A DNA stretch of 64,000 nt from Acinetobacter piscicola (GTDB lineage: Bacteria > Pseudomonadota > Gammaproteobacteria > Pseudomonadales > Moraxellaceae): the NCBI RefSeq assembly GCF_015218165.1, contig NZ_CP048659.1:3795083-3859082 (forward strand), read 5' to 3'. This document shows, piece by piece, positions 49,640-59,046 of this stretch. A program made the position numbers and the translations under genes. The notes below the pieces were generated by a model, which was given only the letters and a program-made list of their open reading frames with translations, was not told where the DNA came from and did not search any database. The stretch's first letter is position 1. The number at the start of each line of letters is the position of its first letter.

Positions 49640-50542
49640 TTAGGCCACGTGACCTAACGGGTTAATCTTATCATAGTACATTGCTTCAAACTCAAAAGGC
49701 GATACATAACCCAATGCGCTGTGTACACGCTTTTTGTTGAACCAATCTACCCAATTTAATGTCGCAAGTTGTACATCCGCTAAACCTTGCCAGTCTGCTT
49801 TTAAATATTCAATCACCTCTGTTTTGTATAAGCCATTCACTGTTTCAGCCAAAGCGTTATCGTATGAATCACCGGTCGTACCGACTGATGCTCGTAAATT
49901 TGCTGCTTCTAAACGATTGGTATAGCGAATGGAAAGATATTGAACCCCTCTGTCACTATGGTGAATCACATTCTTTGGCATGTCTCGAGCATGTAACGCT
50001 TGCTCAAGTGCATCGAGCACCATATCTGTATTCATCCGTGTCGATACTTTCCATCCAACAATTGCTCGTGAGAAGACATCAATAATAAATGCAGTATAAA
50101 CCCAACCTGAATTTGTTTGAATATACGTGAAGTCAGCGACCCATAGCTGGTCAGGATGATCAGCACTAAAATTGCGTTTCACCAAGTCATCTGCTCGTTT
50201 TTGATCCTCTCGGCTACGGGTAGTTTGTTTATTCTTACCACGCCAAACACCTTGTATACCTAGTTTTTGCATCAATCGAGCAACTGTACAGCGAGCAATA
50301 ACATAGCCTTCACGTTTCAATTTTTGCCAAACTTTACGCACACCATATCGACCTGAACTTTCCTTCCAAATTCGTTTAATTTGTTCAGCATGATGCAAGT
50401 CATGTAGATCTCGCTTTGCTCGATGTTCTGGGTTTTCAACGAAATCTAGTGTTCGATAATAGGTAGAAGCCGCGATCGGTAAAATCCTGCAAATCGCCTC
50501 AACACCATATAACGCCTTATTGTTATGGATGAAATCTACCAT
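49640..50542 (-). CDS. IS3-family transposase OrfB (DDE integrase domain)
   Basis: 300 residues. An N-terminal HTH_21-like region (YGVRKVWQKLKREG) is followed by an rve integrase core with the DDE triad: Asp in WVADFTYIQT, Asp in IHHSDRGVQY and Glu in ALAETVNGLYKTE. It catalyses transposition after -1 frameshift fusion with OrfA; a T6C run in the orfA end (GCTTTTTTC, around 50575) is the probable slip site. The C-terminus has the family's NWVDWFNKKRVHSALGY. Confidence 0.95.
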   Translation of the reverse strand: MVDFIHNNKALYGVEAICRILPIAASTYYRTLDFVENPEHRAKRDLHDLHHAEQIKRIWKESSGRYGVRKVWQKLKREGYVIARCTVARLMQKLGIQGVWRGKNKQTTRSREDQKRADDLVKRNFSADHPDQLWVADFTYIQTNSGWVYTAFIIDVFSRAIVGWKVSTRMNTDMVLDALEQALHARDMPKNVIHHSDRGVQYLSIRYTNRLEAANLRASVGTTGDSYDNALAETVNGLYKTEVIEYLKADWQGLADVQLATLNWVDWFNKKRVHSALGYVSPFEFEAMYYDKINPLGHVA

Positions 50543-50859
50543 TATTTGTGTGGGCGGTCGAGCTCCGCCTGGGCGAAAAAAGCGGCTGCTTTACGTAGAA
50601 TTTCGTTAGCACGTTGCAGTTCTTTATTTTCACGTTCGAGTTGTTTAATACGTTCTTGATCTGAAAGTTGCTGTACTTTAATTGGGTTTTGTTTATCTAA
50701 ATATTTTTGATACCAAACACGTAGAGTTTCAGGAGTACAACCTATCTTGGGAGCAATAGCGGTGATCGCAGCCCAATTCGATGGATAATCTTTCTCGGAT
50801 TCAATCAATAATTCAACCGCTCTTTCTCTGATTTCAGGGGTATATTTTACTTTTTTCAT
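50542..50859 (-). CDS. IS3-family transposase OrfA (helix-turn-helix)
   Basis: 105 residues: an HTH DNA-binding domain (YTPEIRERAVELL and TPETLRVWYQKY) followed by a leucine-zipper coiled coil (about 70-95, RIKQLERENKELQRANEILRK). It binds the terminal repeats and dimerises. The stop overlaps the orfB ATG by one base (TAATG), standard for IS3. Confidence 0.93.
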   Translation of the reverse strand: MKKVKYTPEIRERAVELLIESEKDYPSNWAAITAIAPKIGCTPETLRVWYQKYLDKQNPIKVQQLSDQERIKQLERENKELQRANEILRKAAAFFAQAELDRPHK

Positions 50860-55338: not shown

Positions 55339-55791
55339 TTAATGCGCTCCGTTTGAGTTTAAAGGAGCTTTACCATTCACGACCAAATGAGGGTGGCAAA
55401 GCTGTAAAGGGTTGGTCGATAGGTTCAAACGGATACCTACACACGTAAACGTGTCCCTCCACAGCTTCACCATAAAATGCGAACGCATAGAGATATTACG
55501 CACAAAAAAAGCCCTTGCGGACTGTGCGCCGTTTGAATCATAGCCGACCAAAGCTAACTTTGAGATTTTGCTCAAAGCAAGGGAACTATAACTACGAAAG
55601 TTTCGTAGTGCAACAAGAAAAACAACAATAAAGTATTTTAGTGGTGCATCCAGTTTTGGATATACTCCCATAGGATTTAAAATACTGTCAGAATAAATGT
55701 GAGCAAATTTGCTCATATCTAAATAGATACGCTCAAATCTGAGTGCATCTAAGGCTTGAGTTTTGGCTTTAAAATCTATTATTTGATTCAT
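55339..55791 (-). CDS. Possible Ash/Icd-like protein or structured RNA region
   Basis: 150 residues with unusual composition: RNFRSYSSLALSKISKLAL, then SNGAQSARAFFVRNISMRSH and NPLQLCHPHLVVNGKAPLN. The ARAFFVR and CHPH pieces recall the Ash-type proteins of P4-like elements, but I am not sure. Inside the same bases lie perfect hairpins: ACTACGAAA-G-TTTCGTAGT near 55591-55609, and CCCTTGC/GCAAGGG at 55511 and 55577. The segment may function partly as RNA, as P4 immunity RNA does. Coding status is therefore only moderate. Confidence 0.5.
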   Translation of the reverse strand: MNQIIDFKAKTQALDALRFERIYLDMSKFAHIYSDSILNPMGVYPKLDAPLKYFIVVFLVALRNFRSYSSLALSKISKLALVGYDSNGAQSARAFFVRNISMRSHFMVKLWRDTFTCVGIRLNLSTNPLQLCHPHLVVNGKAPLNSNGAH

Positions 55792-56878: not shown

Positions 56879-57115
56879 TTAAGCCTCCATCGTTACAATG
56901 TTGGCTTTATGTTTGGCTATACGATCTGCTACCCATGAATCGACATCTGATTCAATCCAAGCGACACGGCGTTCTGACAGGTTTAAGCATTGAGGAAAAT
57001 CACCGCTTCTCATCATGGCATAGATGGATGAAGCTCCAAGTCCTGTTTTTTCTTGGACTTCTTTACGGCGAATCAAGCGATTATTTTCAGTTTGTTGCGA
57101 TTTAGATAAAGTCAT
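56879..57115 (-). CDS. AlpA-family excisionase/transcription activator
   Basis: 78 residues. MerR-like HTH: RLIRRKEVQEKTGLGASSIYAMMRSGDFPQ, then RRVAWIESDVDSWVADRI. AlpA proteins activate integrase expression and act as recombination directionality factors in P4-like elements. It is the first gene of the operon that runs to ssb. The hairpin cluster at 57281-57499 is upstream, between alpA and int, where AlpA operators would be expected. Confidence 0.88.
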   Translation of the reverse strand: MTLSKSQQTENNRLIRRKEVQEKTGLGASSIYAMMRSGDFPQCLNLSERRVAWIESDVDSWVADRIAKHKANIVTMEA

Positions 57116-57280
57116 CTAAACATTCTCCAGTGATGGAAATGCCTAGACACAAAAATAGAAAAGTAGGAATGTTTGAGTTTTTAAACTAAGTTTTATCAGC
57201 TAGATATAGCATTGTATTGGTGTTCAATAGGTTCAGTAAGAAACAATGGAATGTATCTTTAAGTAAACAAAATGTTGACC

Positions 57281-57348
57281 AGTTAGTCTTTCCTAACTAT
57301 AGTTCTACCTATAGGGTAAGTTTACTTACCTATATCGGAGTTCCGATA
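57281..57348. repeat. Four back-to-back 6-bp inverted repeats
   Basis: In order: AGTTAG/CTAACT (57281-57298), CTATAG/CTATAG (57297-57314), GGTAAG/CTTACC (57315-57330) and TATCGG/CCGATA (57333-57348), with loops of 6, 6, 4 and 4 bases. They tile 68 bases without gaps. Confidence 0.8.
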
Positions 57349-57424
57349 AAACTTGTTTTTAAGCTGTTTACATTTCTAAAGTTCCTTTAGGTTTGTGTCT
57401 TGGTGGACATGGTTTAAAAATATC

Positions 57425-57499
57425 GACATGTAGTAATTTCCAGTTACTCCATGTCATCCAAAGAGTTGATGTATTTCCAGTACATCAACTCTTTTTTAT
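57425..57499 (+). ncRNA. Candidate regulatory RNA: two hairpins with the same TTTCCAG loop, second is a terminator
   Basis: Hairpin 1: GACATG-t-AGTAA / TTACT-c-CATGTC (57425-57455). Hairpin 2: 13-bp perfect stem (57461-57473 with 57481-57493), then TTTT. Both loops read TTTCCAG. The layout recalls small antisense immunity RNAs of P1/P4-type elements. The 5' end is not visible and the direction rests on the T-run. Confidence 0.45.
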
Positions 57500-57795
57500 T
57501 ATTCATTGATTGCTTTCACATTTATTACAACTCAATGAACATGCTGTAACTTTATAAGAGTTATGTTTAAATGGCTACCCCTTTGCCACACAAGTGCGTT
57601 AAATGTTGTCGTAAAACTAAGCGAACAAACGGATGTGTGTAAGTTCATATTTATGCATATAGTGTCATATTGGTTTCGACACTATCCATTTGACTTTAAT
57701 AAGTTTGTTAAATAAAAACATTAACAAAAGTTAATATAAGTTGTTCATTTTTATGAACATAATATTCATATTTGAATATTACAAATAATTACAAA

Positions 57796-59046
57796 TTACC
57801 CTACCTTATTATTTTTAACCTGATTAAAAAAGATTATGTTTTGTTCATAAATCACACTAAAAATATAATCGCTCCACTTTTGCAACATCGTAGTACGCTC
57901 CTTTTCGTACTTCGCCTTGTTATACACTGCTCGCACCCCTTTCCCCGTGTGGTTCAAACACGCCTCAATCGCATCACTGTTAAAACCTTGTTCATTTAAA
58001 TGCGTGCTTGCTGTACGCCGTAGATCGTGAATAGTGAAGTCAGCTAAACTTGTTAATTTAAGGGCGTTCTTTTGGGACTCATTAAAGGCATTATGGCTTA
58101 TATGTGTGCCTGTCTTTCTACCTACAAAAACATAAGGCTCATCACCTGCAATCTGTTTTAATTCTTTTAATATTTCTATAACTTGATCAGACATATAAAC
58201 AAGCATTTCACGGCTATGCCCAGTTGTACTATCTGCCTTTGTTTCAGGAATTAACCATATACGTGTTTCAAAATTGATATGCTCCCACTTCGCCCTCAAT
58301 AGCTCTGACTTTCTAATCAAAGTTAATAGTGATAATAGAATGCCTAATTTTCTAGGACGATATATACGTGAGTTGAGTAGGGCAGTGTAGAACTCTTTTA
58401 TTTCGTTTGTTTTTAAATAACGATCTCTCGGCACTGCCTTATAGATATGGCGTGTTGGGATAGCAAGCACTGGATTAAACGGAACTAAACCCAATGTCAT
58501 AGCATAATCAAACATACGTTTTAATAAACCTCTGACTTGATTGGCTGCTGCATCATAACCTTGATCTTTCTTACGCCATATTACACGGCGGACATCATCA
58601 ACGCCGATCTGTTCTATAGCCATATTGCCAATCATGGGATAAATATCATTTTTCAAACATAAAGCCATGTTATATGAGTTCTTACGCTCTTTTTGAATAA
58701 CATCCTTGAAATACATTTCTCCATAGTCACGGAATAGCACACTGGTGACTTTACTTTTATTTTGTTTTGGTGAAATGCCTTTCGCCACCAATGAGGCTGA
58801 TTCATCTCTAATCTGTCGAGCTTCTTTTAATGATAGATCGGGATAACGACCTATCACCAATCTTTCTTGTTTACCGTTTAATGAGTAACGATAGTGCCAA
58901 GACTTCACACCCGATTCTTTAACCTCAATGAATAAACCATTATTCAATTTATCTTTCACTGAATAGCGTTTTTCCTGTGGTTTGAGGTTTTGAATTTCTC
59001 TATCTGTAGAAAAAAATAAACCATTTATCTTGGGCATCTTAGGCAC
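57796..59046 (-). CDS. int: Tyrosine recombinase, P4-type integrase
   Basis: 416 residues. An N-terminal arm-binding DUF4102-type domain (about 20-95, WHYRYSLNGKQERLVIGRYPDLSLKEAR) and a core-binding domain precede the catalytic domain. Catalytic residues are Arg245 (LIRKSEL), His340 and Arg343 (HDLRRT), His366 (NHTGKG) and Tyr375 (AVYNK). It inserts the element at the mnmE 3' end: it ends 193 bases from attR, and mnmE is intact after integration. The attL/attR sequences support the site. The C-terminal tail after Tyr375 is longer than in some relatives. Confidence 0.93.
   Translation of the reverse strand: MPKMPKINGLFFSTDREIQNLKPQEKRYSVKDKLNNGLFIEVKESGVKSWHYRYSLNGKQERLVIGRYPDLSLKEARQIRDESASLVAKGISPKQNKSKVTSVLFRDYGEMYFKDVIQKERKNSYNMALCLKNDIYPMIGNMAIEQIGVDDVRRVIWRKKDQGYDAAANQVRGLLKRMFDYAMTLGLVPFNPVLAIPTRHIYKAVPRDRYLKTNEIKEFYTALLNSRIYRPRKLGILLSLLTLIRKSELLRAKWEHINFETRIWLIPETKADSTTGHSREMLVYMSDQVIEILKELKQIAGDEPYVFVGRKTGTHISHNAFNESQKNALKLTSLADFTIHDLRRTASTHLNEQGFNSDAIEACLNHTGKGVRAVYNKAKYEKERTTMLQKWSDYIFSVIYEQNIIFFNQVKNNKVG

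Follow-up and report, generated by a model that had tools for sequence, protein, structure and literature searches.

Twin hairpins with a shared, exchangeable loop in a predicted small RNA divergent from alpA in Acinetobacter integrative elements

Locus and predicted small RNA

The window, that is, the whole 64,000-nucleotide stretch of Acinetobacter piscicola DNA that was analysed, carries two adjacent hairpins between an alpA gene and a tyrosine integrase gene. The features of this region, in window positions, are as follows.

55389-55477 (-), C4 antisense RNA, distinct from the predicted RNA but in the same element (RF01695 of Rfam, 62.8 bits, E 8.4e-10)
56879-57115 (-), alpA, the regulator gene divergent from the predicted RNA (PF05930, E 2.7e-18)
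57263-57279 (no strand assigned), operator-like palindrome GTAAACA-NNN-TGTTTAC with one mismatch, overlapping the candidate -35 of the RNA
57275-57303 (+), candidate promoter of the RNA, TTGACC-17-TATAGT (consensus scan, 10/12)
57309-57499 (+), predicted small RNA consisting of a 5' hairpin, J, hairpin 1 and hairpin 2/terminator (fold, promoter and terminator scans)
57355-57420 (+), J, a conserved three-helix domain 5' of the twin hairpins (match of profile R1 at 57356-57420, covariation)
57425-57455 (+), hairpin 1, loop TTTCCAG at 57437-57443 (sequence, fold)
57460-57494 (+), hairpin 2, with a T-run to 57499, loop TTTCCAG at 57474-57480 (terminator scan, sequence)
57549-57611 (-), 63-bp copy of a host MFS gene end with the start of the ssb leader (another copy in this genome, 95% identity)
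57796-59046 (-), tyrosine integrase, its 3' end facing the hairpins (PF00589/PF13356)

Judged from its sequence, the element in the window is small, integrative and satellite-like, and lies at the 3' end of mnmE. Downstream of alpA it carries a winged-helix gene, a Bro-N gene, the C4 RNA, a gene for a DUF3987 protein and ssb. Of the 18 element loci compared, 15 have a relative of the integrase next to mnmE, that of G043 being a fragment (genomes and loci are cited by G and L labels). In G143, G163, G058 and G071, the mnmE-end stretch TGTATTGGAAAGTA was repeated 6.4-10.9 kb onward and thus marks the element ends; a second, left-end copy of this att repeat was not found in the window. Next to the element's left part are transposase genes of IS3-like appearance, with an ALIL frameshift signal (49640-50859). 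The C4 RNA precedes the DUF3987 operon, and among the element loci scanned C4 was found elsewhere in G111 only, the other element with a TTTCCAG loop.

The stretch at 57549-57611, with its 95% identity within the genome, reaches up to 97% identity to other genomes. A 680-bp query was matched in 161 of 175 genomes, nearly all of the matches listed falling in this stretch. It may be a captured promoter or an old attachment site.

The stems of the two hairpins are unlike, and the 7-base loop TTTCCAG is common to both. An earlier note on this DNA had described such a pair, and the description was confirmed by the sequence and by the fold of 57410-57510 on the plus strand, for which RNAfold gave -31.7 kcal/mol versus -12.0 ± 2.9 in shuffles (z -6.8). 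The minus strand of the same region folded too (z -5.0). RNAfold closed the loop on the plus strand by two extra weak pairs, leaving UCC alone unpaired, and left the 7-base loop CUGGAAA open on the minus strand. Hairpin 2, which the note had called an intrinsic terminator, was indeed recognised as one by the plus-strand terminator scan on the criteria of a stable stem and a T-run. Of 2000 dinucleotide shuffles of 57116-57795, 3 contained neighbouring hairpins with an equal loop of at least 6 bases and 1 contained such twins with a T tail. The whole 64-kb window contained, on both strands, one further equal-loop pair with a T tail (TTATTT, minus strand).

The twin hairpins are predicted to form the 3' half of an RNA of about 190 nt divergent from alpA, since the region is bracketed by the candidate promoter (57275-57303) and by the terminator ahead of 57499. 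The promoter scan was weak by itself (5 sites in the scanned region versus 14.5 expected by chance), and the fold of 57309-57505 gave a z of -7.2. The palindrome at the candidate -35 is common to alpA elements and antA phage-like modules; in the form GTAAACANNNTGTTTAC it was present, with at most one mismatch, in 8 of the 20 control regions examined, where it lies 139-164 bases ahead of the regulator gene.

Domain J has a three-way layout in which 83.4% of the cells were standard pairs, compared with 36-46% when the layout was slid. Its covariation score was 0.178 versus 0.114 in shuffles (0/500), both figures being computed on 23 of the 25 members described below (22 distinct rows; G143 and G022 were left out owing to an insertion) and with a structure drawn on one of the tested sequences, which biases the test in its favour. 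The counts of pairs and of pair types with changes were weaker, being reached by 12 and 31 of 500 shuffles. Because the fold of the first J alignment contained zero base pairs, the model was used as a pure sequence profile. An apparent inverted relative of J lies in the alpA leader (57116-57270, minus strand). In 6 of 17 elements, no more than 5 of 300 shuffles equalled the local alignment to such a relative, which did not hold for the other 11, and the profile matched an inverted relative in Alkanindiges (L138, 1387-1432, E 0.0019).

At the RNA, no match to an Rfam family attained that family's cut-off. Over the window RNA, the search at E<=10 returned sub-threshold chance matches alone and no family at cut-off; those over the hairpins (SNORA14, E 0.24; URE2_IRES, E 4; MIR1886, E 8.6) were taken as noise. 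With all families of Rfam 15 at E<=1, nothing was found over the RNA in the 25 RNA-bearing loci.

Members and their loop words

The J profile at E<=0.01 matched 28 of 175 Acinetobacter genomes, 22 of which (the window's included) were accepted after inspection of the downstream sequence. The matches in G146, G145, G029, G106, G149 and G012 and a second match in G071 lacked such hairpins and were dropped. AlpA searches added three members, Alkanindiges illinoisensis and two IMG/VR contigs, making 25; a further IMG/VR contig (L150) was dropped, its hairpins being equal to those of G037. The profile matches all 25 members, 16 of which were used to build it. Across 341 genomes of the order it found the window's own genome and four weak matches, of which the one inspected, G146, had already been dropped. 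No J was detected at E<=1 in twelve distant AlpA loci (L139-L148, L152, L153). In blastn searches with three variants (window, G022, G150), the RNA was found in no named phage or plasmid record. Among named phages, the window query matched the 63-bp ssb-leader stretch only, G022 gave two 37-base partial matches and G150 none; among plasmids, the three queries matched the 63-bp stretch only or nothing.

The RNA is not confined to complete alpA elements. In G061, G171 and G150 it is divergent, at a similar distance, from a gene for an AntA/AntB antirepressor, which takes the place of alpA (called by Pfam in G061 and G171, by similarity of the translation in G150). It is retained in G024 and G151, where the integrase is gone, in G043, where the integrase is cut short, and in G153, where integrase and alpA were not found within 1.5 kb. 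In G022 its surroundings are phage-like (a prophage, judged from the translations), its neighbours share its strand, and there is no divergent regulator. There, a Pseudomonadales-1 RNA (RF03046; L116, 1200-1368, minus strand) directly follows the twin-loop RNA; RF03046 has two copies in the window's genome (G000:C1:1564716 and 1869108), in phage-like-looking stretches. No such RNA is present in the element of G011 (A. bouvetii), which carries integrase, alpA and primase, so the RNA is not needed for residence. One or both ssb-leader sub-sites were recognisable in 12 of the 25 members, on the side of hairpin 2 away from J (ACTTTATAAGAGTT at <=1 mismatch in 7 members, ACAAGTGCGTTAAATGTTGTCG at <=2 in 9).

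The loop words of the members are listed below, with a single word where both hairpins are equal and hairpin 1/hairpin 2 where they are not.

TTTCCAG: window, G111
GGTCGAA: G024, G151, L151
TTGGCG: G143, G163, G028, Alkanindiges
TTGACG: G043
CGTCAA: G037, G071
CGCTAA: G164
ACGCCAA: G117
CTGGTAA: G170
CTAGTAA: G153
TTGCCG: G171
TTGCAG: G150
TGTGGTG: L149
GAAAA/TTGCAG: G058
TTCTCG/TTGGCG: G009
TTGGCG/AAT: G113
CTCGTAA/CTGCGAA: G080
TTGCCG/TTAGCG: G061
CTGGTAA/TTGGCG: G022

Both hairpins thus carry identical loops in 19 of 25 members, with 12 different words, and unequal loops in 6, the limits of hairpins and loops having been set by eye, which may favour equality. When the hairpin-2 loops were shuffled among elements, the mean was 2.3 equal pairs of 25 (maximum 10 in 100,000); with each loop combination counted once, 12 of 18 were equal versus a permutation mean of 1.1 (maximum 7). 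The note's proposal that the loop is shared beyond chance is supported. In G117 and G024, the predicted fold closes hairpin 1 differently from the limits set by eye. A mechanical strict-stem search recovered equal twins in 7 of 14 RNA-bearing loci, none of which had been read as unequal; the remaining seven comprised four that had been read as unequal and G111, Alkanindiges and L151, all three read as equal.

The note had also expected stems to vary while the loop stayed. This was not found: loops differ between elements, and some stems are nearly unchanged. Five different loops occur on nearly one hairpin-2 stem (seven members). Hairpin 1 of G043 and that of G163 are one loop base apart, as are, at the same loop base, hairpin 2 of G043 and that of G028. 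The hairpin 2 sequences of the G143 element and the phage-like G022 region are nearly identical, and Alkanindiges has equal loops with quite different stems. Loop spacing ranges from 25 to 47 bases. The note had named unconserved loops in related elements as grounds for giving up the idea of a selected loop, and such elements do exist; yet both loops change together, and this coupled change speaks more strongly for a selected recognition loop than mere conservation would. Hairpin 2 was more stable on the plus than on the minus strand in 19 of 25 members (Wilcoxon p 1.4e-4), and hairpin 1 showed no strand preference (plus more stable in 11 of 25, p 0.21).

Two further properties of the words point to base pairing. 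Among the 16 distinct loops of at least 6 bases there were three exact reverse-complement pairs (ACGCCAA/TTGGCG, CGCTAA/TTAGCG and CGTCAA/TTGACG), compared with a mean of 0.12 in letter shuffles, where three were reached in 1 of 3000. A YUNR motif stood at the start of the loop (4) or of its complement (5) in 9 of the 12 identical loops, versus a mean of 1.6 in letter shuffles (0 of 20,000 reached 9); in all of these shuffles the significance is overstated, as members are not independent lineages and loop families are related, although the direction is clear. The YUNR of the window sits in the complement CTGGAAA, and TTGCAG, TTGCCG and TGTGGTG have none. Taken together, loop co-variation, reverse complements and YUNR support the view that the loop is not a chance product and acts like a base-pairing recognition loop. 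The note's proposal of a selected pairing loop is thereby strengthened, in a form that the note had not anticipated, but a ribosome-binding site as its target is not supported.

What may read the loops

The searches for a target did not favour CTGGAAA as part of a ribosome-binding site. The window contains 8 copies versus 10.9 expected. Within a range on the alpA strand that began 2.5 kb ahead of the alpA start and extended 8 kb beyond it, the complement of the hairpins themselves was the only copy, and paired CTGGAAA within 12-42 bases occurred once elsewhere in the whole genome, equal to the control count of 1. Over the same range in 17 elements (shorter where the locus ended), exact loop complements showed no positionally conserved site. 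In five of the 13 equal-loop elements (G000, G028, G037, G024, G151), the alpA strand held no complement beyond the hairpins' own, and the other eight had scattered extra complements with no position in common. The AntA leaders of the three modules had no common loop-complement site either. The alpA ribosome site CTGGAGA, which would pair with TTTCCAG with one G-U pair, fits the window but was rejected because a near-identical site is present in G024, G143 and G163, whose loops differ. A role of the loop as the integrase core was likewise rejected: among the repeated mnmE-end words listed, TGTATTGGAAAGTA is the same in G143, G163, G058 and G071, and their loops differ.

We tentatively favour an antisense RNA with duplicated, exchangeable tips that would kiss an opposite-strand transcript and thereby set immunity or incompatibility. 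The loops would act by kissing an RNA with complementary loops, and the likeliest partner would be a transcript running from the integrase or the ssb-leader-like site through the region towards alpA, because that transcript would form the same two hairpins, with complementary loops that often start with YUNR. Such a transcript would present the complementary loops at the same boundaries, where the YUNR of five loops lies, and could start at the ssb-leader-like site at 57549-57611. No terminator-like site was found by the scan on the minus strand between the integrase stop and the hairpins, and no promoter-like site by the consensus scan of the minus strand of 57116-57795. Pairing would destroy, stop or block the opposite transcript, so that the regulator, and perhaps the integrase, would be kept low. 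A resident element would then silence an incomer that shares its loop and leave alone one whose loop differs, by analogy with plasmid antisense RNAs, whose loop mutants found new incompatibility groups. With two equal loops, either tip could meet either partner tip, and a mutation in a single loop would be kept only once the other loop follows. The presence of the RNA beside antA without alpA, and in remnants without integrase, was counted for this antisense reading; the ssb-leader-like site recognisable in 12 of 25 members only, the missing promoter-like site on the minus strand, the unequal loops, the words without YUNR, the lack of a strand preference in hairpin 1, the context of G022 and the absence from G011 were counted against it.

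Possible but somewhat unlikely is action in trans, with the twin loops binding RNAs from other elements or from the helper phage instead of the RNA's own opposite strand. Loops would change with their partners, and elements with reverse-complement loops would antagonise each other; the three pairs of exact reverse complements in different elements suit this idea, as do the lack of a positionally conserved target in the own element and the presence of the RNA in AntA modules and in a phage-like region, with near-identical hairpin 2 in G143 and G022. It is weakened in that no sign of a paired target was seen in the own genome, that named phages and plasmids yielded no copy of the RNA in blastn searches with the three variants, and that the partner would need to follow each loop change. 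It is also conceivable, though unlikely, that the loops form a barcode system in which one six- or seven-letter word, written twice per RNA, would spell kinship: the same word would mean one immunity group, and reverse-complement words would mark natural antagonists (TTGACG versus CGTCAA, TTGGCG versus CGCCAA, TTAGCG versus CGCTAA), with exclusion by loop-to-loop pairing.

Quite unlikely is a protein, for example a dimer, that binds both loops and co-evolves with them. Paired hairpins can be dimer sites, as in the tandem pan motif in the portion of PMC2864571 concerned with it, but twelve loop words, some of them one base apart, would have to be accommodated, and binding by a protein would not lead one to expect reverse-complement loops. 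TTTCCAG, TTGGCG and CGTCAA all go with AlpA proteins that are 78-80% identical to that of the window. Residues S29-A33 are invariant in 13 AlpA proteins with differing loops (a comparison that leaves out the more distant AlpA of G024, G151, G170 and G080), which makes AlpA an unlikely loop reader, and beyond alpA and int no element gene family occurs in more than 10 of 18 loci.

That the hairpins are ordinary tandem terminators, equalised without function by small duplications or conversion between them, is very unlikely: hairpin 2 is a good terminator, but stems are not copied with the loops, and equality persists with 12 different loops and with the quite different stems of Alkanindiges, next to the YUNR excess. 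A DNA-level site, either a priming or recombination hairpin or a duplex binding site readable in either direction, would explain orientation-free and reverse-complement loop words in a region between integrase and alpA, but is extremely improbable given an att repeat at the mnmE end about 1.7 kb off, a loop spacing varying from 25 to 47 bases, greater stability of hairpin 2 as RNA on one strand, and RNA-like covariation in J.

In summary, the twin-loop RNA appears to represent a family recognised by no Rfam 15 model here, with the unusual rule that duplicated recognition loops evolve in step, and its loop word varies between elements much as an identity tag recognised through base pairing would. 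If the loops decide the mutual tolerance of elements, six bases would suffice to tell which immunity group a satellite belongs to, and natural variants with a simple reporter could test the rule that an equal loop is repressed, a different one ignored and a complementary one antagonised.

Comparison with known RNA systems

A description of the RNA was not found in searches of the open-licence PMC literature. The int-alpA RNA goes back to a 2017 motif survey. Table 3 of PMC12370729 names an int-alpA RNA as an Rfam family, and as far as that table goes the likeness to the twin-loop RNA is by name only, in the position between int and alpA. No int-alpA match was returned by cmscan at E<=1 in the 25 RNA-bearing loci (Rfam 15, inclusion of the model being unconfirmed by name).

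Kinship with C4 and CI, which the earlier note had suggested, was not borne out. The C4 model (RF01695) had no match at 57100-57800, and hence none at the hairpins, even at E<=10, the true C4 lying 2 kb away; no C4 was found at the RNA in the 25 RNA-bearing loci at E<=1. C4 sits ahead of ant on the same strand, whereas the twin-loop RNA is divergent from its regulator and shares its element with a separate true C4. C4 pairs with the ant leader through two different loops (a', b'), whereas both loops here are the same, and the alpA operon of the window contains no exact loop complement. As presented in the relevant part of PMC5320573, C4, which is processed from a longer transcript, and CI of P4 are small RNAs by the antirepressor or alpA genes of phages and satellites with variable specificity loops; to that extent the twin-loop RNA resembles C4 (P1/P7) and CI (P4) in adjoining a regulator and in its variable loops.

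In TwoAYGGAY and mini-ykkC, the loop word is nearly fixed across the family, whereas the word of the twin-loop RNA varies between elements. The TwoAYGGAY motif consists of hairpins with a common terminal-loop word, and mini-ykkC is the guanidine-II riboswitch. The mini-ykkC hairpins carry ACGR terminal loops, according to the motif's entry in PMC2864571.

The plasmid antisense RNAs act on copy control, whereas the twin-loop RNA lies in integrative elements, with no replication gene known as its target. Examples of copy-control antisense RNAs are CopA of R1, RNA I of ColE1 and RNAIII of pIP501, and the loop word TTGGCG/CGCCAA occurs in CopT/CopA too. YUNR, expected in the recognition loop of one kissing partner, is present in the loop or the complement of the 9 of 12 identical loops noted above. 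In the account of loop pairing in PMC4485353, the tips of the loops set specificity, YUNR is present and loop changes lead to new specificities, and the twin-loop RNA is like the RNAs so described in its specificity tips on hairpin loops and in YUNR. It differs from them in having two identical loops that change together.
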